A stretch of DNA of 47,683 nucleotides, from contig JADZBD010000014.1 of assembly GCA_020852255.1 (NCBI GenBank), positions 1 through 47,683 of the forward strand, read 5' to 3'. Below, one piece after another: positions 7,520 to 19,451 of this stretch; position 1 is the stretch's first letter; every line of letters begins with the position of its first letter. Made by a program: the position numbers and the translations under genes. The notes beneath the pieces are model-generated. The model was given only the letters and a program-made list of their open reading frames with translations, did not search any database and was not told where the DNA came from. Source of the stretch: Bacteroidia bacterium. GTDB lineage: Bacteria; Bacteroidota; Bacteroidia; JADZBD01.

Positions 7520-7897
7520 CTACAGATAATACAAGTCAATCAGGTATTTGGCAATATCTTCATCGTCCCTGCCCAAAGTGGTGGTTACATTATGCGCTTT
7601 GTTATCCTTCATGGTAACCACCTTCCATTCCTTCGCATTCATCCCTTCACTTGTAGCCTCAGCTATTTTAGTTCCGTTAGGCAGAAAATATGAAATGGTG
7701 TAAATCATTTTACCGGAGCCAGCCGAACTGTTTTCCTTAAAAGTGCCGATCACCTTGCCATCCTGCTTTATCTGACCTCCCATAGTAAACAGCATAGCTT
7801 TTCGGTTGCGATCCACAGTTTGGTAGATGTCGGCTGTCGTTCCATTAGTGACCACGATTACGGTCGGGCTGTTTTGCTCCTTGCTTGTTATAACCAA
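7520..7897 (-). pseudogene. 5'-truncated gene of unknown function
   Basis: The frame encodes up to 125 residues with only a TTG available at its beginning and no signal peptide. The content (short beta-strand-like stretches, MLFTMGGQIKQDGKVIGTF, ends KYLIDLYYL) looks like the C-terminal part of a small exported or periplasmic protein. I do not recognise the family. Its 5' end meets the 5'-truncated hsdR fragment at about 7890, so both genes probably lost their starts at a single junction. It could instead be an intact cytosolic protein using the TTG. Confidence 0.4.
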
Positions 7898-8783
7898 CCT
7901 CCAGGAGTTACGGGATAAATTACCGGAGGTAATTAAAAAATGCCTGGCTCATTTCCCCGGCATAGACCGGAATCATGTTGGCTTCGAGGGATTACAGGCC
8001 GCCCAAAATTGCATCGGCACGAATGAAAAGCGCGATGCTTTTGCCAAAGATTTTAATAGCTTATCGAAATTATGGGAAGCCCTCTCCCCGGACCCCGTTT
8101 TAAATCAATTCCAAAAGGATTATAAGTGGTTATCCCAGGTTTATACTTCAGTAAAACCGGCCTCGGATGACAATGGCCGACTTTTATGGCACGCGCTCGG
8201 AGCGCAAACGACAAAATTGATCCACGAACACATCCACGTTTCGGGTATCAATCAGGAAATGGAAGAGGTGATCCTGAACGCAGAGGTAATAGACGGGTTG
8301 ATGAATAAGAAAGACCCGAAAGAAGCAGAGAGAATTTTAAAAATACTGATTAGCCGTCTGCATAAACACGGCAACCACCCGATCTTCAAAAAACTTAGCG
8401 AGCGCCTGGAGGCCGTTCGGGACAAAGCAGAAAAAGGATTGATAAATTCAATTGAATTCATCAAGGAACTTTGCCAAATAGCTAAAGAAACTCTCCGGGC
8501 CGAGAAGCAATCTGAAACAAAACAGGAGCAGAAATCGGCTAAAGCCGCATTGACTGAACTGTTCCTGGAGATGAAAACCGATAAGACCCCGGCCATTGTT
8601 GAACGGATCGTGAGCGATATTGACGAGATCGTGAAAATTGTACGCTTTGATGGCTGGCAAAATTCCGTCACCGGAGAGCGTGAGGTAAAAAAACAGCTAC
8701 GGAAGACCCTTTTGAAGTATCAGCTCCACAAGGACGAGGATTTGTTTAACAAGGCCTACGGATACATAAAGGAGTATTATTAG
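7896..8783 (+). pseudogene. hsdR: C-terminal fragment of a type I restriction enzyme R subunit
   Basis: From about 7896 the frame reads NLQELRDKLPEVIKKCL, GFEGLQAAQNCI, LSKLWEALSPDPVL, KDYKWLSQVY, LWHALGAQTTKLIHEHIHV and, at the end, GEREVKKQLRKTLLKYQLH..KAYGYIKEYY. This is the C-terminal helical region of HsdR-type proteins. The nuclease and DEAD-helicase parts (normally some 700 residues) are absent, as are hsdM and hsdS. The 22 codons before 7896 are antisense to the neighbouring gene and show no HsdR similarity. It is a relic and should not cut DNA. Confidence 0.85.
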
Positions 8784-9252: not shown

Positions 9253-10449
9253 ATGTCGCCACGTCTTTTAGAATTACACTTCGCACAGCTAACTAAGGCG
9301 TGGAACAAATCAAAATACAATAATTACTCTGATAATAACAAAAAGCTTTATCACGACAGGTTAGGAGACCTTTACTATCTTCTTAAAAAGGAAGATTTTT
9401 CAAAATTCACTCCGAAGCAGATCGCTGAAAGGTATGATGTTATTAATTTAATCTTCAAGAGCCTTGAATTCCTCGACAGCAGTACGCTAAATCTGCTCCC
9501 GTTTGAAATTGTAAAATGTCTGGATTCTGCCTTAAAGGATTGGCTTCAGGGGAACGAAAAATTGATTATCGTAACCTCCCTGGTCAATGACATCAACAAT
9601 TATAGCTTTGATGAATCCCTTGCCACGAATGAACAATTGTTCAAGTACATTGAGCTTCAGTATAAAGTCCAATTCGATTCTCGCCTCATCCAGATAAATT
9701 TACCTGCTACCCTTTCTCGTGATTATTTAGCAAACGTGGTTCTTTACCATGAATTAGGGCATTTTATCGATACTAAATATCAAATCTCCCGGGCCATTCA
9801 CGATGAAATTTTAGAGAGACTCTTTGTAAACAGGAATATTACCCCTGCTGAAGAAAAAGACTTAGCAGACTACTTCCCCTTTCTAAAAAACTACAAGGCA
9901 TTGGAGCCGTACTACTATAGTCAGGGAGAAATAGGTGTTTTATGGGTATATATTGCAGAATATTTTTGTGATCTTTTTGCTTCCCAATACATAAAAAATT
10001 GTTCGAGCCATTATCTACAATATCTAACACAAGCTTACGCGACACAACACGGCAATGCACATCCATCAACCGAAAAAAGAGTCGAACTCACGGGGAAATT
10101 TTTATCCGGGGACATAAGCAGTTTCACGTTAAATAAAATAAAAGAGGCTGTCAATAAAACAACTTCAGGGAAGAATCTATCTATAAAATTTGAAGAGAAA
10201 AAATCCGATGACTTTATCAATCTTGTTCCTATGGATGTTGATAACGATCGGCAGTTACATTACCTGTTCGTACACGGCTGGGACCTATGGCTTAATAACT
10301 GGCATTTGTTCGAACAGAAAAACAATATGAAATTTACCCTTGACAGAGAAAAGGTTTATGACATTGTAAATAGTTTGATTGAAAAATCTATTGGGAACTA
10401 TGTGGTTAAGACTAATTGGGAAAAAGCGAAAGCCAATGTTTCTAAATAA
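9253..10449 (+). CDS. Predicted zinc metalloprotease (HELGH family, unassigned)
   Basis: 398 residues. HELGH at 166-170 in a hydrophobic helix (NVVLYHELGHFID) supplies two zinc ligands and the catalytic Glu. 'AEYFCDLFA' at about 235-243 places a Glu/Asp in the position of the third ligand in gluzincin-type peptidases. 'HPSTEKR' at 270-276 resembles the His-Pro...Arg motif after the third ligand in M48-like enzymes. There is no signal peptide or membrane helix, so a cytosolic location is expected. It is the second gene of a tight operon with a small protein (3-bp gap) and the deaminase-like gene (14-bp overlap). Substrate is unknown. Confidence 0.7.
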   Translation: MSPRLLELHFAQLTKAWNKSKYNNYSDNNKKLYHDRLGDLYYLLKKEDFSKFTPKQIAERYDVINLIFKSLEFLDSSTLNLLPFEIVKCLDSALKDWLQGNEKLIIVTSLVNDINNYSFDESLATNEQLFKYIELQYKVQFDSRLIQINLPATLSRDYLANVVLYHELGHFIDTKYQISRAIHDEILERLFVNRNITPAEEKDLADYFPFLKNYKALEPYYYSQGEIGVLWVYIAEYFCDLFASQYIKNCSSHYLQYLTQAYATQHGNAHPSTEKRVELTGKFLSGDISSFTLNKIKEAVNKTTSGKNLSIKFEEKKSDDFINLVPMDVDNDRQLHYLFVHGWDLWLNNWHLFEQKNNMKFTLDREKVYDIVNSLIEKSIGNYVVKTNWEKAKANVSK

Positions 10450-11047
10450 AAAAGAAATAGACAAGCTCATAGAAAAAAAAGAGCTTATTATTAAACCCCT
10501 TTTGGACCCGGGCCAAGTAGGCGAAATATCCATTGACTTTCGACTCGGGTATGATTTCCTCGTTTCAATACAGGGCCGGGAACCATTCATAGATGCTTCA
10601 TTAAATAACAAAGATCGTCATCCAATAAGCAGTTTTTTTCAAGAGACCAGGCGGGCCATAGGAGAAACATTTTTATTACATCCGAATCAGACGGTGCTGA
10701 CAAGTAGCTTGGAGTTTATCAAAATGCCAAATGATGTTTTTGCTGTATTGAATATGAGGAGTTCATACGTCCGTCTCGGAATTACCGTTGCCACAATTGT
10801 ACAGCCGGGATATTGTGGTTGCATGTCACTGGAATTAACAAATTCTAATAAAAACCCGGTTAATATGACTGTTGGGGCTCCTATAATACAAGCCCGCTTT
10901 TATCGGTTGGCCGAAAAATCTAATTACTTCAGTAAGGCCAGGAAGTACATTTGTCAGGTTCGGCCTCAGATTTCCGCAGTAAATGATGACGGTGATTTAA
11001 AAATATTACATCGTCTATGGGAAGAAAGCAATCATAAAACATCTTAG
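10436..11047 (+). CDS. dcd: dCTP deaminase / dUTPase-superfamily protein
   Basis: 203 residues from ATG 10436, which overlaps the metalloprotease end by 14 bases. An upstream frame exists, but homology begins at this Met. Family marks include SIDFRLG (32-38), the MRSSYVRLG segment (R108, S109, S110) and LELTN with E133, the position of the catalytic Glu in E. coli Dcd. PGYCG and GAPIIQARF further fit the trimeric fold. Housekeeping Dcd makes dUTP from dCTP; several phage-defence enzymes of this family deplete dCTP. The operon with a metalloprotease inside a mobile element favours a defence or regulatory role, but this is inference. Confidence 0.75.
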   Translation: MFLNKKEIDKLIEKKELIIKPLLDPGQVGEISIDFRLGYDFLVSIQGREPFIDASLNNKDRHPISSFFQETRRAIGETFLLHPNQTVLTSSLEFIKMPNDVFAVLNMRSSYVRLGITVATIVQPGYCGCMSLELTNSNKNPVNMTVGAPIIQARFYRLAEKSNYFSKARKYICQVRPQISAVNDDGDLKILHRLWEESNHKTS

Positions 11048-11055
11048 GCCTGTTA

Positions 11056-11943
11056 CTATTGCGCCTCGCCCCTCAAGATAATTTTTGTGCGAGAATTGTT
11101 TTTCTCTCCAACTGGCATGATTAACACAAATGCATTGTAGGTGTTGTAAAAATAATGATATTGAAATGTGGTAAGTCCGTCCCCAGTCACAAGGCTAAAT
11201 TGGCCTTCAGTGTGAAATTTTCTTTTCTTTAAGTAATCCTGAACAAAAGTCCACTCTATACCCAACGTTTTTTGCCAAGTGATTTCACCAAATTCGTGAG
11301 TAAAGGATGAGGATTGGAAATAATTCCGAACATCACAGCTTCCCGAAATGGTATGCTCTGGATCTTTTAGAACTAACAGGGCGCAGCGCTTAGAGGAGTA
11401 TTCCACGTATCGCCTGATGGCAGCGTGTGTTGAGGACCCGAAAAACTTTGAAAGATACATTGGGGATTTTATTTCGAGTGGTAGTTTTTTCATTTCCTCC
11501 TCGAATCTATCCAGTTGAAATAATGTGGCTGAAGCAAAATAGTTCGCCTCAGCTTCAAATTCATCATGAGTATCTGGATCGATGGTACTATCATCGTCCT
11601 CCATATACTCGTAAGTTTGGCGTTGCCACGGGAGGGCTTCATGACCAACTTCGTGGAGCTGAATAAATTTTTTCCGGGGTTCCGGCTGGTTGGGATCAAT
11701 ATATACTACCTTTTCCCTTCTATCCAGGGCCCCGCGCCATTTGCGCAAAGCTCTTTTTAGTGCCTCAGAAGTACGCGATAGGTAATTCTTAGGAATATTT
11801 GTTATGTCCGTTTTGGTATCTACAGAGAGCTGAGAATAACGAATAATGCTTTCAACCGGGGTAGGGAATACGCCTAAAGCCTTACTTTGCTTAAGCATGT
11901 CGAATGAAACAAGCTCGATGTCCATGCGCGAAGCCTTTTTCAT
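11056..11943 (-). CDS. ImmA/IrrE-family metallo-endopeptidase
   Basis: 295 residues. HEVGH (97-101) and ExEAN (130-134, in HDEFEAEANYFASA) are the zinc-binding signatures of ImmA/IrrE (DUF955) peptidases. The remaining ~150 residues are a C-terminal extension of unknown fold. It overlaps the upstream XRE regulator by 4 bases (ATGA arrangement), the standard ImmR-ImmA pairing. ImmA-type proteases cleave their partner repressor to induce an element. Its 3' end faces the deaminase gene with 8 bases between. Confidence 0.85.
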   Translation of the reverse strand: MKKASRMDIELVSFDMLKQSKALGVFPTPVESIIRYSQLSVDTKTDITNIPKNYLSRTSEALKRALRKWRGALDRREKVVYIDPNQPEPRKKFIQLHEVGHEALPWQRQTYEYMEDDDSTIDPDTHDEFEAEANYFASATLFQLDRFEEEMKKLPLEIKSPMYLSKFFGSSTHAAIRRYVEYSSKRCALLVLKDPEHTISGSCDVRNYFQSSSFTHEFGEITWQKTLGIEWTFVQDYLKKRKFHTEGQFSLVTGDGLTTFQYHYFYNTYNAFVLIMPVGEKNNSRTKIILRGEAQ

Positions 11944-12335
11944 TTCTTCTTTTGAAAACGGATAAATTTCAAATATTCAACTAAGGCTTTTTCCTCTTCC
12001 GGAGAGAGATTTTCAGAGGAAAGCGCGTATCCCCCAAGTGAATGAGGGGCCTTATTTTTCGCAGAATTACCAGTAAAGTTCTTTGTTCCGGTTTCTACCA
12101 AGGGAGAATCAATAATTCCAGCATCCGTCAATAGGTGGCTAAAGTTAATTCCATAAAGGTTCGCAAGTCTATAAAGTACATTGGCTGAAGGTTTTTTGAT
12201 TTTATCATGTTCCAGTTGGCTTAGGTATGCATTGGATATTTCTGTAACTTCTTCCACCTGCCTTAATGTAAAACCCTTGGTTTCCCTCGCACTTCGGAGT
12301 TCTTCACCCAGAGTTTTTTTTGTTTTTGCTGTCAT
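11940..12335 (-). CDS. XRE-family helix-turn-helix repressor (ImmR-like)
   Basis: 131 residues. A helix-turn-helix of the lambda-repressor/XRE type spans about 8-65 (LRSARETKGFTLRQVEEVTEISNAYLSQLEH..KPSANVLYRLANLYGI). A linker of about 35 residues and a short C-terminal helix (LSPEEEKALVEYLKFIRFQ) follow and could contain the ImmA cleavage site. It is transcribed divergently from the ubiquitin-like cassette, with 178 bp between the starts. Two inverted repeats there are candidate operators. I infer that it represses itself and the cassette. Confidence 0.88.
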   Translation of the reverse strand: MTAKTKKTLGEELRSARETKGFTLRQVEEVTEISNAYLSQLEHDKIKKPSANVLYRLANLYGINFSHLLTDAGIIDSPLVETGTKNFTGNSAKNKAPHSLGGYALSSENLSPEEEKALVEYLKFIRFQKKK

Positions 12336-12364
12336 GCTATAGTTGTTTTAATAGGTTTCCGCCA

Positions 12365-12396
12365 CAAAGGTAACTAAAATTGCTCAAAACCACAAG
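12365..12396 (-). promoter_or_regulatory. Promoter of the XRE-ImmA operon
   Basis: On the minus strand, CTTG (12396-12393) and TACCTTTG (12372-12365) are separated by 20 bases, matching the Bacteroidota -33/-7 architecture. The start codon lies 29 bases after the -7 box. The inverted repeat 12397-12417 directly abuts the -33 box. Confidence 0.6.
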
Positions 12397-12417
12397 CTTA
12401 GCTAAATTATTGCTAAG
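12397..12417. promoter_or_regulatory. Candidate operator: inverted repeat CTTAGC-N9-GCTAAG
   Basis: A perfect 6-bp inverted repeat with an AT-rich 9-bp centre sits between the two divergent promoters, next to the -33 element of the XRE promoter. It is a plausible binding site for the dimeric XRE repressor. Confidence 0.45.
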
Positions 12418-12442
12418 TAGATTTAATTTTTCTTTAAAAATG

Positions 12443-12474
12443 CTTGGTAGATTTAAAACAGCTTCGTACATTTG
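12443..12474 (+). promoter_or_regulatory. Promoter of the ubiquitin-like cassette
   Basis: CTTG (12443-12446) and TACATTTG (12467-12474) are 20 bases apart, the same boxes and spacing as the divergent XRE promoter. Transcription would start near 12481, about 33 bases before the Ubl start codon. Confidence 0.65.
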
Positions 12475-12497
12475 GCAAATAATTAGTATTTACCAAA
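12471..12497. promoter_or_regulatory. Candidate operator overlapping the -7 box and start site
   Basis: TTTGGCAAATA-ATTAG-TATTTACCAAA forms an 11-bp inverted repeat with one mismatch. It covers the end of the -7 element and the expected transcription start, so a bound repressor would block RNA polymerase. The half-site differs from the 12397-12417 repeat, so two different proteins or two affinities are possible. Confidence 0.55.
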
Positions 12498-12513
12498 TCA
12501 AAAACTAAGAAAA

Positions 12514-13011
12514 ATGAAAACAATTCAACTTTATTTGAATGGCGAGGGTTGTCCCGAGCCAAAACTGGTAGAAGTATCTGCCGAAGCTACTATTGCAGAC
12601 GTAATCAATAAGTATCGCGAAGTAGCTAACCTTCATGATGCAAAGGTAGATGAAATAGAGCTTTTCTTTGAAGACGAAGAACAGCCCAAGAACAAAGGAC
12701 ATCATATTGAACAGGCAGGGATAAAAAAGCGACATCGAGTTCACTGTCACCGCTGCCGCAAGGTTGCTGTTACGGTAGAATATAATGGTCAGATTAAGGT
12801 CTTAAGCGTTCCCCCGTCTGCTACCGGGGCAATGATTCTTAAAAAAGCGGCAAAGGAATTTAATATCAGTGAAAAAGATGCTGCTGATTTGATCCTGAAG
12901 CTGCCCAACGGGAATGTTTTGCAGAAAACGGATCACATAGGCTCGTTCGTAGCGTCTCCTCATTGCGAAATCAAACTTTTACTAATACACAATACCCAGG
13001 TTCAAGGATGA
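12514..13011 (+). CDS. bilA: Tandem ubiquitin-like protein (BilA-like modifier)
   Basis: 165 residues forming two probable beta-grasp domains. Domain 1 (about 3-78) begins TIQLYLNGEG, with a helix TIADVINKYREVA. Domain 2 (about 83-160) begins VAVTVEYNGQIKVLSVPPSAT, with a helix AMILKKAAKEFNIS and the DHIGSFV loop. Two fused ubiquitin folds resemble ISG15 and the BilA modifier. The protein ends TQVQG, with a single C-terminal Gly rather than Gly-Gly, so it could be conjugated without processing. The next three genes encode E2-, JAB- and E1-like proteins, each overlapping its neighbour, which makes the role as modifier convincing. Letter naming follows my recollection of the BIL order. Confidence 0.8.
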   Translation: MKTIQLYLNGEGCPEPKLVEVSAEATIADVINKYREVANLHDAKVDEIELFFEDEEQPKNKGHHIEQAGIKKRHRVHCHRCRKVAVTVEYNGQIKVLSVPPSATGAMILKKAAKEFNISEKDAADLILKLPNGNVLQKTDHIGSFVASPHCEIKLLLIHNTQVQG

Positions 13012-13484
13012 GACCGGATTTACAGCTTTTTAATACTCATGTTGAAGAGGCCGAATTTCAAATCGGAGTGGACAATGGCATGTGGGGAATTGTGGATGAC
13101 AACCCGCAACGCCCTACATGGCCATATGTCATAATTTGGGTGCAGGCAAGTCCAAAACCGAATGCGCCTAATATGTATTATTTCAGATTTGAGCTGTCAG
13201 GCTATTCAGCATCCGCGCCAACAGCTTGCCCCTGGGACATAGATGGGAATCAACGACTGCCAGATAATTTATGGCCCAAGGGGAATAAATTCGTGTCGTC
13301 TGTATTTAGGCCCAGTTGGAATCCCAACGCGCTTTATGCTCCTTGTGATCGCCTGGCAATGGGAGGACATGGAGACTGGCAGGCACGACATCCGGAATTA
13401 TGGTGGCAGCCAACTTTTAAAATTGATAAGTACTTACATTTTCTCCATAGACTTTTAAATTCTGCTGATTATGTCAATTCCTAA
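13008..13484 (+). CDS. bilB: E2-like ubiquitin-conjugating enzyme (BilB-like)
   Basis: 158 residues from ATG 13008, overlapping the Ubl stop as ATGA. An in-frame extension to 12963 lies inside the Ubl gene and is unlikely. Strand-like segments (VIIWVQAS, YYFRFELSGY) are followed by 'ALYAPCDRLAMGGHGDW' and 'WWQPTFKIDKYLHFLHRLL'. This order, a Cys followed by W-x-P and a terminal helix, fits the E2/UBC active-site region, making Cys113 the likely catalytic residue; Cys74 is a weaker alternative. It should carry the modifier as a thioester from the E1-like protein. Assignment rests on context and motif layout more than on strong identity. Confidence 0.68.
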   Translation: MRPDLQLFNTHVEEAEFQIGVDNGMWGIVDDNPQRPTWPYVIIWVQASPKPNAPNMYYFRFELSGYSASAPTACPWDIDGNQRLPDNLWPKGNKFVSSVFRPSWNPNALYAPCDRLAMGGHGDWQARHPELWWQPTFKIDKYLHFLHRLLNSADYVNS

Positions 13485-13971
13485 ACTGGAAATATCTCAA
13501 CACCTGTGGACTAAACTTATAGGACAATTACGAACTCGTGGGAAAGGGAAGCGCGAAACCGGAGCCTTTTTGCTCGGCCCAGTCGATAAAAATGCGATCT
13601 CCTCTTTCATTTGTTATAATGATCTTGATCCACATGCCTTTGATTCGGGGATAATTATTTTCAGTGGGAACGGATATATTCCTCTATGGAAACATTGTAT
13701 TGAAAACAGCCTCCGTGTTTGGGCCGATGTTCACACGCACCCTGGTGCGTGGACGGGTCAAAGTCCATCTGATAAGGCTCATCCCATGACCGCTCAGAAA
13801 GGACACATTGCATTAATAGTTCCCAACTTTGCAAAAAATAAAAAGCAACTTTTAAACGGAGTTGGCATTTATGAATATATGGGCGACCGGAAGTGGAAGA
13901 CCTGGACCGCCAATCCGGGTGCGATAAAATTTATTGAACAAAAAAATGAGAAAAGAAGTAACAGAAAATAA
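13471..13971 (+). CDS. bilC: JAB/JAMM metallo-isopeptidase (deubiquitinase-like, BilC-like)
   Basis: 166 residues. All JAMM residues are visible: Glu29 (KRETGAFLLG), then H88-T-H90-P and S98-P-S-D101 in VHTHPGAWTGQSPSD. These bind zinc and activate water to cut a peptide or isopeptide bond after a ubiquitin-like C-terminus. It overlaps the E2-like gene by 14 bases and the E1-like gene by 26. With a modifier that already ends in Gly, its main job is more likely to remove the modifier from targets or to recycle it than to mature it (inference). Confidence 0.88.
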   Translation: MSIPKLEISQHLWTKLIGQLRTRGKGKRETGAFLLGPVDKNAISSFICYNDLDPHAFDSGIIIFSGNGYIPLWKHCIENSLRVWADVHTHPGAWTGQSPSDKAHPMTAQKGHIALIVPNFAKNKKQLLNGVGIYEYMGDRKWKTWTANPGAIKFIEQKNEKRSNRK

Positions 13972-15343
13972 TTTTAATCGCCTTGCTATCTGCATTATGT
14001 CTAAACATAATTGTTCCTATGAGGAGGCGCTGGATACTCTTGCAGGGTTAAAATTAAACCTGGTTTGTGGTGAGGCCATAAGAACCTCTATTCCCCTTCA
14101 GGCAGCATTATTAACTGCACTTAACACCGGGAAGCGGGCATTTCTTGGAGGAATATTTGTTGTACTCCCAGAAAATATAAAATTTTTACTTCCCTGGTCA
14201 ACCAGAAATACTTTGAATGAAGTAGTTGTAGGGTTGGGAGGGGAAATTAAAGAAAAAGTAGTCGAAGGGTGTTTTACGTTAACATTCGGTGCACCAGCAA
14301 ACATTGACGATAATTCCTTAGAGATTGTTTGCAATGCATGGCAGGGGGGTATATTAAGTGGAGATTTGGAGCCTCAATTACAGGAAAATAATAGTATTCC
14401 GATTGGTGGCATCGCAGCAGGAGCATTAGGTGTAGGAACGGCATTTCTTAGAGTTGCTGGAGTTAATAATTCAGCCGGAGACTCCTCGGTGGGGGTTTCG
14501 TTGTGGCGACCCGATATAGATTGGCTTGATCCCCAATCCAGGGGACCGGAAGTAAAATTCTTGCCTGAAAAATACTGGCTACTTGGCTTAGGTCATTTGG
14601 GTCAAGCATATTTGTGGAATATCGCTTTCCTTCCATATGAAAATCCTTCGCAAGTATCCGTCCTTTTACAAGATTACGATAGAATGGCACATGCGAATTT
14701 GAGTGCCGGTCTTCTATGTGAACAGAAACACGATGGCCAATATAAAACAAGAGTATGCAGCGATTGGCTCGAAGACAGAGGGTTTAGGACTATAGTAACA
14801 GAAAGAAAATTTGATGTGACAACAAAACCTAATGATGGCGAACCATTAGTGGCGCTTTGCGGGTTTGATTCAGCTTCTTCCAGGGTACACCTGGAAAATG
14901 CCGGGTTTGATTTGGTTATAGAAGCAGCTCTGGGAGGAAATTTATCTTTGTTTGATAATATCATCTTGCATACTTTTCCAGATTCATTTAAATCTCCAAA
15001 TGATATTTGGGGTGGAGCAGTCTCCCAAGAGCTGGAAGTAAATTCCCTTATTCTTGAAAAATTTGCACATCTCGAAAAAAAAGAATGTGGAATTATTGCT
15101 CAAACCCTTGCGAGAAAAGCAATATCAACTTCATTTGTAGGGGCCTTTGCCGGGGCACTCGTAATTGCCGAGCTTCTTCGAGGATTAAATGGTGGTATCA
15201 GGTATGATACCATTGTGGTGCATTTGAGAAGTATCGAGCATAAACAGGCAATCATCCACGATAAACAGAAATATAGTATTGAAATGAGCAGGAATGGTTT
15301 TTTACCTGCCCAGGTTCCTCTGCTGACCGATAGCGAGCGTTGA
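13946..15343 (+). CDS. bilD: E1-like ubiquitin-activating enzyme, ThiF fold (BilD-like)
   Basis: 465 residues from ATG 13946; an in-frame TTG lies at 13934. The Rossmann ATP-binding motif GLGHLG is at 214-219, followed by an acidic loop QDYDRMAHANLSAG (242-254) like the D-x-D-x-x-x-x-N-L of ThiF/MoeB/E1 proteins. CGFDSASSR (305-313) and VIEAALGG follow. KKECGII with Cys381 near the C-terminus, before SFVGAFAGALVIAELLR, is the best candidate for the thioester Cys. The first ~205 residues lack GxGxxG and may be an inactive partner domain. It should adenylate the modifier and pass it to the E2-like protein. No CxxC zinc pair is obvious. Confidence 0.82.
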   Translation: MRKEVTENNFNRLAICIMSKHNCSYEEALDTLAGLKLNLVCGEAIRTSIPLQAALLTALNTGKRAFLGGIFVVLPENIKFLLPWSTRNTLNEVVVGLGGEIKEKVVEGCFTLTFGAPANIDDNSLEIVCNAWQGGILSGDLEPQLQENNSIPIGGIAAGALGVGTAFLRVAGVNNSAGDSSVGVSLWRPDIDWLDPQSRGPEVKFLPEKYWLLGLGHLGQAYLWNIAFLPYENPSQVSVLLQDYDRMAHANLSAGLLCEQKHDGQYKTRVCSDWLEDRGFRTIVTERKFDVTTKPNDGEPLVALCGFDSASSRVHLENAGFDLVIEAALGGNLSLFDNIILHTFPDSFKSPNDIWGGAVSQELEVNSLILEKFAHLEKKECGIIAQTLARKAISTSFVGAFAGALVIAELLRGLNGGIRYDTIVVHLRSIEHKQAIIHDKQKYSIEMSRNGFLPAQVPLLTDSER

Positions 15344-16259: not shown

Positions 16260-16465
16260 GTCCGTTTTAGTCAATTTGAATGATTTCCGGAAAAATCACT
16301 CATTTTCGTCAAAAACTGTCTGATTTTGACTGTTTTATGCTGATTTTTGGTAAAAACATGGCTATTTTAAGCAACGGTCACTTTATTCCAACCCTATAAA
16401 ATCTTCCCTACATTTTGTCATGTCAAAGTTAAATATTACCTTTAGGCATAATTTTTGAGGTGCCT

Positions 16466-17428
16466 ATGACGGTGGATTCAACCAAGCAAAACTTGTTTTC
16501 AGAATTCGTAGGACTTATTCATTACGAAGGACTGAAGCCGCTCATTGAACGGTTAAATGAGAAGCATTTCACTAAGAAGGACTTTCAGGTGACTTATAAA
16601 ACCCTGCATGTTTGGGCAAAGGAGGGCTTGCTTACGGATGACAAGGAAGACCCACGGGACTGGAAGCGGTTCAGTTTTGTAGAGTACGCATGGATGAACA
16701 TTATCATTAAGCTGAAGAATTTTGGAATGTCGACAGAGAAAATTTTATTGACGAAGAAAGTGTTGGCTACTCCCTTCCCTGTGAAAGAGCTTATTGACTC
16801 ATTGGATTATGCTACCGGGGAAGGAATGAAGTATTTAAATAAGCATGAACAGAAGATCATGCAGTCTTTCCCTAATGAATTATTGAAGCTCATAAAGGAA
16901 AGCAAGGACGAACCCACTCCAAAAGACATAGCCGGGCATTTTACCATGCTAACTTTTATTCTTGGTAATTACATCATCACCCGGAATAATGTTTATTTCA
17001 TCATTGACAAGCGGGGTAAAGTATTTCCCTGGGCCGAGGACAAAAGAGATCAGTATATTAAACTTGGATTCGGAGCTATTTTAGAAAAGGATCATATTTC
17101 TATTTCGCTTGCCGGGTTGGTGAGGGATTATATTATGTACGAAAAGATTGAAAATGAAGAGCCAAGATTTCATGTGCTGACAGAAGAAGAACAGGAGGTG
17201 ATAAAATATATAAGAGAAAAAAAACTGAGTGAATTAACCATTCGCTTTGATGGTAATAATAAAATCTCGTTGATCGAAGCAACCGAAAATCTCGACACGG
17301 TGAATGTTGAAGCGCGATACCTCGACCATATATTGAGGCACGGCTACCAGGATATATCCTATACCACCGCAGGAGGGAAGATTGTAAAGTTTCAGCGAAC
17401 AACAAAGAAAAAATTCAAAGCAGCGTAA
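16466..17428 (+). CDS. DNA-binding protein with MerR-like N-terminal domain
   Basis: 320 residues from ATG 16466 (an in-frame GTG lies two codons upstream). The region 'VTYKTLHVWAKEGLL..DWKRFSFVEYAWMNIIIKLKNFGMS' (about 40-95) matches a MerR-type winged helix: first helix, wing, and a helix selecting the DNA. The remaining ~220 residues are unassigned; 'ELTIRFDGNNKISLIEATENLD' and 'YQDISYTTAGGKIVKFQRT' near the end look like a small beta-rich domain. Located between the GTTCGAT cluster and the recombinase, it may regulate or initiate element functions. The role is inferred only from position. Confidence 0.6.
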   Translation: MTVDSTKQNLFSEFVGLIHYEGLKPLIERLNEKHFTKKDFQVTYKTLHVWAKEGLLTDDKEDPRDWKRFSFVEYAWMNIIIKLKNFGMSTEKILLTKKVLATPFPVKELIDSLDYATGEGMKYLNKHEQKIMQSFPNELLKLIKESKDEPTPKDIAGHFTMLTFILGNYIITRNNVYFIIDKRGKVFPWAEDKRDQYIKLGFGAILEKDHISISLAGLVRDYIMYEKIENEEPRFHVLTEEEQEVIKYIREKKLSELTIRFDGNNKISLIEATENLDTVNVEARYLDHILRHGYQDISYTTAGGKIVKFQRTTKKKFKAA

Positions 17429-17509
17429 AATGGGATTGAACAAATCAACCCGGAATATACATCTGTGTGCCAACCGAAAAAAGGAAGCGCATGACAACGA
17501 TGTAAAACC

Positions 17510-17701
17510 ATGTTATCATTAGAAAAATGCAGAGAAGTATTATGCAAAAACGGAAGAACCTACACAGACGAACAAATCAAAACAATTAGAGATTTCTGCT
17601 ACAAACTGGCAGAGATTGAGTACGAAGAATATTTAAACAAAATAAAAAATGAGAAAGCGGGCGATAATCTACACCAGGGTATCTACAGACGAGCAAGCTG
17701 A
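17510..17701 (+). CDS. Small protein preceding the recombinase
   Basis: 63 residues starting MLSLEKCREVLCKNG, then YTDEQIKTIRDFCYKLAEIEYEEYL, mostly helical and charged. Similar short 'MLS-x-E-x-C...TDEQ' proteins often stand directly before serine recombinase genes in Bacteroidota; this is recollection, not a search. Its 3' end overlaps the recombinase start by 53 bases in another frame, which suggests translational coupling. Function is unknown. Confidence 0.55.
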   Translation: MLSLEKCREVLCKNGRTYTDEQIKTIRDFCYKLAEIEYEEYLNKIKNEKAGDNLHQGIYRRAS

Positions 17702-19196
17702 TAGGGGCTACAGTCTGAAAGATCAGGAAGACCGACTCCAAAAATTCTGCTCTTTGAAGGGTATAGACATTGTTCTACATTTTCAAGATGATCATTCTGC
17801 AAAAACATTTGACCGGCCAGAGTTTAAAAAACTTCTTGACTTTGCAAAGAAAAACCGGGCTGATGTTGACTTGCTTTTGTTTATCAAGTGGGATAGGTTT
17901 TCCCGAAATGCCGGGGATTCCTATTACATGATAAGTCAGTTCCGTAAACTCGGCATTGAATGCCAGGCAATCGAGCAGCCATTGGATTTATCTGTTCCCG
18001 AAAACAAGATGATGCTCGCTTTTTATCTTGCGGCACCTGAAGTGGAAAATGACAGGCGTTCCATCAATACCATTAATGGAATGCGAAGAGCAATGAAGGA
18101 GGGCCGGTGGATGAATAAAGCCCCTATCGGGTATAAGAATTCGCGGGATGAAAGAGGAGGCTCAATCATTATTCCGAGTAAAGATGCTCCGCTTGTCAGG
18201 GAGGCGTTTGCTGAAATGAGTACCGGGGCTTATCTGATGGAGGAAGTGCGTAAGAAATTACTGAGGAAGGGGTTCAAGTGCTGCAAGAACAATTTCCCAA
18301 ACCTCTTGAAAAATCCTGTTTATATCGGAAAGATTTTGATCCCGGCATTAAAGGATGAAGAAGCGCAGGTAGTCCAGGGAATTCATCAACCGTTAATTGA
18401 TGATGATACTTTTTATACTGTTCAAAATATTCTGAACGGAAGAAAAAAATTCATCTATCACGACAAACAGCGCGAACAACTCCCCCTCCGTGGGTTCCTG
18501 TACTGTAAAAAGTGCGGCAGGAAACTTACCGGCAGTGGCTCAAAAGGGAATGGAGGTAAGTATTTCTATTATCACTGTACGAAGGGATGTAATGAGCGGT
18601 TCAAAGCCGAGGAGGCCAATGGCGTTTTCCTTGATGAATTGGCCAAGCTCCGCGCAGATGATACCGTGATTACCTTCCATTATGAGGTTTTGAAGGATGT
18701 GTTTTATTCCCGGCAGAAAGGGCAATCCAGTTCCACTATCAAGCTCAAAGAAGAAATTGCTAAGAATTCTGTAAGGGCAAATGCCGCCCAAACGCTGCTT
18801 TTAGATGGCGGTCTCGACATTATGGAGTATAAAGCCATTAAGAAGCGCTACGAGGAAGCTAATGCGGAATTACAGCGGGAATTGGCGCGAATTGAGTTGG
18901 CGGATGGCAACTTCTTGCGTTATTTGGAGTATGACACCAACCTGTTCAGGGGTATCGACCGTTACTTTGCGAAAACTAATAGTGTGAACGTAAAACAGAA
19001 GATCCTAAGTTCATTTTTTCCTTACCCTGTTACTTACGAAAACGGGGCAGTTCGAACCAAACAGTTATGCCCTACAGTGGAGGCGCTTTGCCCAAACCAC
19101 GGGGCTTTCAGCGGAAATAAAAAAGGGCCGGAAACTAATTTTTGTCTCCAGCCCAATTGGGCTCCCCCTCTTGGGCTCGAACCAAGGACCCCATGA
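17649..19196 (+). CDS. Large serine recombinase (integrase)
   Basis: 515 residues. The resolvase domain (about 3-150) carries YTRVSTDEQ with catalytic Ser12 and the arginine motif KWDRFSRN. The recombinase domain follows (KAPIGYKN, LLKNPVYIGKI), then a zinc ribbon at about 285-317 (CKKCGRKLTG...HCTKGC) and a helical stretch near 390-420. The last ~25 codons are read from the hairpin core and from the antisense of tRNA-Asn (ending WAPPLGLEPRTP), so the present C-terminus is set by the integration site. It probably catalyses integration and excision at the tRNA 3' end. The intact catalytic residues suggest activity. Confidence 0.9.
   Translation: MRKRAIIYTRVSTDEQADRGYSLKDQEDRLQKFCSLKGIDIVLHFQDDHSAKTFDRPEFKKLLDFAKKNRADVDLLLFIKWDRFSRNAGDSYYMISQFRKLGIECQAIEQPLDLSVPENKMMLAFYLAAPEVENDRRSINTINGMRRAMKEGRWMNKAPIGYKNSRDERGGSIIIPSKDAPLVREAFAEMSTGAYLMEEVRKKLLRKGFKCCKNNFPNLLKNPVYIGKILIPALKDEEAQVVQGIHQPLIDDDTFYTVQNILNGRKKFIYHDKQREQLPLRGFLYCKKCGRKLTGSGSKGNGGKYFYYHCTKGCNERFKAEEANGVFLDELAKLRADDTVITFHYEVLKDVFYSRQKGQSSSTIKLKEEIAKNSVRANAAQTLLLDGGLDIMEYKAIKKRYEEANAELQRELARIELADGNFLRYLEYDTNLFRGIDRYFAKTNSVNVKQKILSSFFPYPVTYENGAVRTKQLCPTVEALCPNHGAFSGNKKGPETNFCLQPNWAPPLGLEPRTP
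19119..19154 (-). terminator. Intrinsic terminator of tRNA-Asn
   Basis: On the minus strand GGGCTGGAGAC pairs along 11 positions (two G-U) with GTTTCCGGCCC around a loop of eight or more A/T-rich bases. Six T follow (plus-strand A run 19119-19124). It begins 7 bases after the tRNA discriminator base. Confidence 0.8.
19125..19168. repeat. Att-like core, right copy (putative attR)
   Basis: This 44-bp core starts GGGCCGGAAACTAATTTTTG and ends GGGCTCCCCC. It combines the tRNA-Asn terminator with the last seven bases of the tRNA gene (plus-strand 19162-19168). Related copies are at 3497 and 7237. The recombinase reading frame passes through it without a stop. Confidence 0.55.
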
Positions 19197-19235
19197 TTAA
19201 CAGTCATGTGCTCTAACCAGCTGAGCTAAGGAGGA
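19162..19235 (-). tRNA. tRNA-Asn (anticodon GTT)
   Basis: The minus-strand sequence folds as a complete cloverleaf of 74 bases. The acceptor stem is TCCTCCT/AGGGGGA with discriminator G. The D arm is AGCTCAGCTGGTTAGAGC. The anticodon stem CATGA/TCATG holds GTT, and the T arm is CTTGG-TTCGAGC-CCAAG. CCA is not encoded. The 3' half is the integration target of the element to its left; the gene remains intact. Confidence 0.95.
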
Positions 19236-19451
19236 ATTTATTTATTCTGGTACATTAAGAAACACCTTTGCGTTAGCCGGGGTGTTTTAAAGGATTGCAA
19301 ATTTAGGTATTGAAGGGGGATTTGCAAAAAAATATTTTCCATACAAGTAGTTGTATTTCAGATGAGTACTCGTGATTTCTGTATTTAAGAACACGCACTT
19401 TCTATGAAGCTTGCGAATATATACGTAAATTGGATTTAAAATCTCAGGGCT

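Follow-up and report, generated by a model that had tools for sequence, protein, structure and literature searches.

Lau et al. (2022) reportedly described CapH-CapP as a CBASS-associated repressor paired with an ssDNA-activated peptidase. In the published Bil systems, BilA is conjugated to target proteins, namely phage virion proteins. CapP cuts CapH upon binding ssDNA, Bub operons carry either CapW or CapH together with CapP, and the CapK/CapS pair controls some Bil operons (PMC13373217). The CapP-like protein PprI is also ssDNA-activated (PMC10904395), and ImmR/ImmA pairs control ICEs (PMC10233336). CapH/CapP and Bil are each known, and the pairing of the two is little described. The window, that is, the whole 47,683-bp stretch of DNA analysed here, carries such a pairing: a 178-bp gap separates two divergent gene groups and probably forms the control region common to both, with a CapH-CapP switch governing BilABCD: CapH would sit on the promoters and ssDNA-activated CapP would cut CapH. 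The genes on either side of the gap are the following.

11056..11943, minus strand: capP-like gene, M78 (ImmA/IrrE) metallopeptidase of 295 aa with a C-terminal sensor-like domain (Pfam M78, E 2e-10; PADLOC capP, E 8e-20)
11940..12335, minus strand: capH-like gene, XRE repressor of 131 aa (Pfam HTH_19, E 4e-14; PADLOC capH, E 3e-11)
12514..13011, plus strand: bilA, ubiquitin-like protein with C-terminal Gly165 (PADLOC BilA, E 4e-41)
13008..13484, plus strand: bilB, E2-like, with Cys113 in PCDR and His121 (PADLOC BilB, E 5e-53; DUF7665)
13471..13971, plus strand: bilC, JAB/JAMM deubiquitinase-like (PADLOC BilC, E 9e-56)
13946..15343, plus strand: bilD, E1-like (PADLOC BilD, E 2e-135)

The Ubl, E2, JAB and E1 genes at 12514-15343 (+) form one operon in the PADLOC assignment, and the catalytic residues expected of them are intact (E2 Cys, JAMM, E1 Cys and the C-terminal Gly of the Ubl). 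BilA G165 is present in 88 of 88 alignment rows, BilC E29, H88, H90, S98 and D101 are conserved across the rows, and BilD Cys381 occurs in every row. Judged by its sequence, the cassette holds the full BilABCD set. The gene calls of the preliminary description were confirmed for the Ubl cassette, for the XRE gene at 11940-12335 (-) and for the ImmA/M78 gene at 11056-11943 (-). The capH and capP genes overlap by 4 bp and are both divergent from the Bil cassette.

The HEVGH motif of the peptidase is intact at residues 97-101, and its zinc-site residues H97, E98 and H101 are invariant across 12 relatives. A PDB sequence search with the peptidase gave CapP (7t5t) as the only significant match (E 4.6e-7, co-linear over residues 75-194). 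The XRE protein matched 7t5u (E 9e-8), an entry annotated only as a helix-turn-helix protein, which we take to be the N-terminal domain of CapH. A Foldseek search with the AlphaFold model of the peptidase, a modest model (pLDDT 66) built on only 8 sequences, placed the PprI-ssDNA structure 8sln first (E 2e-9) and CapP 7t5t sixth (E 9e-7). These matches identify the XRE and ImmA-type proteins of the window as a CapH repressor and a CapP protease, as far as homology and modelling go. The same circuit could in principle answer to a small molecule or another signal, received by a GAF/PAS-like C-terminal domain of CapP, instead of ssDNA. Conservation and model confidence are both lowest in the C-terminal region of CapP, and PAS domains were also among the fold matches, weakly; however, the nearest folds are the ssDNA-activated PprI and CapP, and ssDNA activation is described for the related CapP and PprI (PMC13373217; PMC10904395). 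We consider this other trigger unlikely and favor ssDNA. In a search of 395 Bacteroidota genomes, CapP was present only in the window's own genome, and it had no match in phage records or IMG/VR. By eye, the CapH proteins of the window and of loci L023, L025, L026, L029 and L099 share a conserved C-terminal stretch near LAGxALSSExLTPEEE, a candidate site for recognition or cleavage by CapP.

The 178-bp gap contains the following elements.

12365..12372, minus strand: -7 box of the capH promoter, TACCTTTG (promoter pattern)
12381..12398, minus strand: operator-like site AGCTTGTGGTTTTGAGCA over the capH -33 box (PWM score 5.1 symmetric, 8.0 asymmetric)
12393..12396, minus strand: capH -33 box, CTTG (promoter pattern)
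12397..12417, no strand: first inverted repeat, CTTAGC-N9-GCTAAG, with 6-bp arms (P 0.76, chance level)
12411..12428, plus strand: middle operator-like site TGCTAAGTAGATTTAATT, a weaker copy
12441..12458, plus strand: predicted main operator TGCTTGGTAGATTTAAAA, covering the bilA -33 box (matrix built from ten other loci)
12443..12446, plus strand: bilA -33 box, CTTG (promoter pattern)
12467..12474, plus strand: -7 box of the bilA promoter, TACATTTG (promoter pattern; 20-bp spacing as in L026)
12470..12498, no strand: second inverted repeat, 10 of 11 bp with one mismatch (P about 0.09; not conserved)

The preliminary description had proposed matched divergent promoters of the form CTTG-N20-TAnnTTTG, and this was borne out: the pattern occurs at 12443-12474 (+) and 12365-12396 (-), pointing away from each other within the gap, and nowhere else in the 47,683 bp. 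Whole-window shuffles gave an expectation of 0.52 matches to the CTTG form, and only 0.02% of 5,000 dinucleotide shuffles of the gap carried TTG-N19..21-TAnnTTTG on both strands. Both sites present this Bacteroidota -33/-7 pattern upstream of a gene, and we regard them, on their sequence pattern, as real Bacteroidota promoters.

A motif for CapH was trained on the capH-cassette gaps of ten other loci with the window left out: four Bil loci (L023, L026, L029 and L063) and the plasmid ThiF/multiubiquitin cassettes L099-L104, with the near-duplicate L025 excluded. Expectation maximisation yielded the 18-bp motif TGCTTGAyATACTTAGCA, whose palindromic form had a log-likelihood of 77, compared with at most 33 in 20 shuffled sets. 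Leave-one-out training recovered it in 9 of the 10 loci (P<=0.0034), L099 being the failure (P 0.21). With this matrix, position 12441-12458 ranks first or second among all positions of the 47.7-kb window (best-site shuffle P 0.008-0.015), and TTG at 12444-12446 inside it is the bilA -33 box. The three copies in the gap each lie 30 bp from the next; the spacing of a pair at 29-30 bp has P 0.0003-0.003 and that of the triple P <1/4000. The best window site scores 13.7 bits, less than most relatives (15-22; L099 9.2), with the loss mainly in the right half-site, and the two flanking copies score low and owe their weight mostly to their spacing, that at 12381-12398 being the weakest of the three under the symmetric model.

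The position of the operator on the promoter is also conserved. The operator TTG lies 20 bp from the -7 box in the window and in L026, and in L023 and L026 the TTGACA of the motif stands upstream of a TAnnTTTG -7 box. The overlap of operator and -35 region recurs in L100-L104; TTGACA within the motif has -35 spacing from a -10-like hexamer in L100 and L103-L104 (register by eye). Copies are spaced by 29 bp in L100 and L103, 29-29 bp in L101 and L102, and 30 bp in L104. Among Bil loci with other regulators the motif is absent (maximum 8.1 bits in 50 class D loci and 4.3 in three class C loci), all of them below the best site of the window. Two loci with fused XRE-M78 genes (L073/L096) score 15.3. 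CapH-CapP systems are marked by an operator within the promoter of the immune operon next to them; here a conserved 18-bp site is predicted in that place. The strong operator of L022:1-209 (22.4 bits), a contig-edge locus outside the training set, predicts a CapH-CapP pair just beyond the contig. L026:2860-3399 retains CapH and a double operator before Bil; no CapP gene was found there by tblastn or profile search within 3.4 kb upstream.

The inverted repeats at 12397-12417 and 12471-12497, which the preliminary description took for the binding sites of the XRE protein, do exist, and the GCTAAG/CTTAGC arms of the first match operator halves. Neither, however, rises above chance, and the relatives do not keep them: the second has no counterpart there, and the outward half-site arrangement and spacing are not the pattern that relatives conserve, which is the 18-bp pseudo-palindrome located elsewhere. 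The first repeat overlaps only part of the middle operator copy (12411-12428). That these repeats are themselves the operators is hardly credible. The pseudo-palindrome also accounts for the CTTG common to both promoters, since both -33 boxes sit within (A/T)GCTTG half-sites.

The preliminary description also implied that related cassettes would keep the XRE-ImmA pair. The outcome was mixed: most Bil relatives lack the pair, but an M78 peptidase was found upstream of Bil in 70 of the 75 loci with at least 3.5 kb of upstream sequence (window included), compared with none downstream in the 78 loci with as much downstream sequence. The sample comprised the 80 best BilD matches plus plasmids and, being so chosen, leans towards relatives of the query alignment; regulators were sorted into classes by iterative profile searches, spot-checked against Pfam. 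The upstream peptidases were split CapH+CapP in eight loci (window included), fused XRE-M78 in five, another M78 in four, and an M78 with a sigma-like gene and a protein of about 130 aa in three. In 50 Bil loci it was an M78-UvrD fusion, with a sigma-70-region-4-like gene ahead of it in 49 and a roughly 200-aa gene ahead of it in all 50. HExxH and a Pfam M78 match were present in all 50 fusions, and PD-(D/E)XK was also found in a representative one. This three-gene module lies directly upstream of Bil in L043:1552-6432 and about 50 other Bil loci. The smaller trio, divergent beside Bil, is seen at L017:4697-6462, L018 and L019 (sigma-like 195 aa, 132 aa and M78 257 aa), with a similar layout in L028. 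L012:1656-3067 has a sigma-like gene and partner upstream of Bil without the M78-UvrD gene. No M78 peptidase was found upstream of BilA in L020 and L021; a divergent ORF there in L020 looks sigma-like by eye.

On a quick BilD tree, 14 changes of regulator type are counted (minimum 4), with the window placed among cassettes with other regulators. Together with the near-constant presence of M78, this indicates that regulators were exchanged while an M78 peptidase was nearly always kept; since most Bil cassettes are under other regulators, CapHP is not required for Bil. Outside Bil, five of five M78-UvrD modules examined (L106-L110) lie upstream of multiubiquitin/ThiF cassettes or comparable genes; in the unannotated L108, the genes downstream of the module match such cassettes in size and order. 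In the literature searched, which did not include the main Bil/Bub papers, no description of the module was found. Phage records and IMG/VR were dropped as a source of relatives: phage records held no BilD, neither source held CapP, and the one viral contig with BilD in IMG/VR carried a copy identical to that of a genome locus. We tentatively suggest, at somewhat less than even confidence, that the Bil/Bub class is gated by M78 peptidases in several architectures (CapH-CapP, fused XRE-M78 and two sigma-like modules), and that the commonest, the M78-UvrD-PD-(D/E)XK switch, may link the processing of broken or foreign DNA ends to the release, by proteolysis, of a dedicated transcription factor.

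Elsewhere in the window, a 318-aa protein at 7827-8783 shows weak likeness to the HsdR C-terminus (Pfam T1RH-like_C, E 1e-5, just under the cut-off) and is possibly the remnant of a type I restriction HsdR subunit. Between this gene and capP, 9253-11047 holds a gene for a 398-aa protein that has a HELGH motif but lacks a significant Pfam match and, after it, a dCTP-deaminase-like gene, possibly another defence unit. A MerR-type gene and a large serine recombinase gene (17649-19196) are found at 16460-19236. The recombinase gene adjoins tRNA-Asn (-), which its 3' end overlaps, and this arrangement of genes suggests an integrated island that includes the Bil region; no direct repeat of the tRNA end of at least 13 bp was found in the window as a boundary, and the left end was not found.

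The recombinase gene and tRNA-Asn at the end of the Bil region, and the control of ICEs by similar ImmR/ImmA pairs (PMC10233336), would suit a CapH-CapP pair that is an independent toxin-antitoxin-like or mobile-element pair merely lying beside Bil, with an operator serving capH only. However, it is the bilA promoter, not that of capH, that holds the strongest operator. Window-type CapP recurs beside Ubl cassettes in distant phyla: in 6 of the 7 plasmid loci examined, an XRE gene is adjacent and a ThiF or multiubiquitin cassette divergent. Moreover, in close BilD relatives the equivalent upstream place is taken by other types of M78 module. This independent-pair reading is very unlikely, and we favor a switch shared by capHP and Bil.

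In the proposed switch, CapH dimers would bind TGCTWR-N6-YWAGCA-type sites, most strongly on the bilA -33 box, less so in mid-gap and most weakly on the capH -33 box. Since these sites lie on the -33 boxes and 30 bp apart, CapH would block access of the sigma factor to bilA and limit its own transcription, and the defence is probably silent until damage to DNA leads CapP to cleave CapH. CapP would be activated by ssDNA that arises in phage replication or through DNA damage, cleavage of CapH would empty the sites, Bil and CapHP would be transcribed, and expressed Bil would conjugate BilA to target proteins. The biochemical steps have been described for other CapH/CapP pairs and for PprI (PMC13373217; PMC10904395; PMC10233336). 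For the window copy, we infer the binding by its CapH, repression, CapP cleavage, the ssDNA trigger and anti-phage activity.

The reading of the preliminary description, XRE/ImmA control of a Ubl defence released by damage or infection, is largely supported: it fits the CapH/CapP identity, the intact HEVGH motif, the sites on both -33 boxes and the recurrence of the pair beside other Ubl cassettes, but the operators were misplaced. Its implied novelty of prophage- or ICE-like control did not stand, as published work already places CBASS and Bub operons under CapH/CapP, and some Bil operons under CapK/CapS (PMC13373217). What our study adds to this work is the operator and the wider M78 pattern. 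The exact predicted CapH operator is located before a ubiquitin-like defence, and the 18-bp site with its promoter overlap is kept from Bacteroidota to Proteobacteria, before Bil as well as Bub-type cassettes. Should the wider pattern prove true, ubiquitin-like conjugation in bacteria would generally be turned on when DNA damage or infection is sensed through a protease gate, which would explain the silencing of a possibly toxic protein-modification system.

Among known systems, CapH-CapP resembles the window pair in having a small XRE repressor and an M78 peptidase of like length (291 aa, compared with 295 aa in the window) adjoining a defence operon. In contrast, the window pair would control Bil in a Bacteroidota host through -33/-7 promoters. 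The four genes of the anti-phage system BilABCD, which is ISG15-like, are found in the window in the same order with catalytic residues intact, whereas other regulators lie upstream of most sampled Bil cassettes. Bub operons with CapW or CapH+CapP share a Ubl-conjugation cassette and the same type of repressor and protease (PMC13373217), and window-type CapP occurs beside multiubiquitin/ThiF cassettes; however, the gene content of Bub differs from that of the window Bil. CapK-CapS provides DNA-damage-responsive control of adjacent immune operons, including five Bil cases, but by a kinase/STAS mechanism without a protease. Finally, in ImmR-ImmA (ICEBs1) and DdrO-PprI/IrrE, an M78 peptidase cuts an XRE repressor following DNA damage, as we propose here, whereas their targets are ICE transfer or a chromosomal damage regulon.
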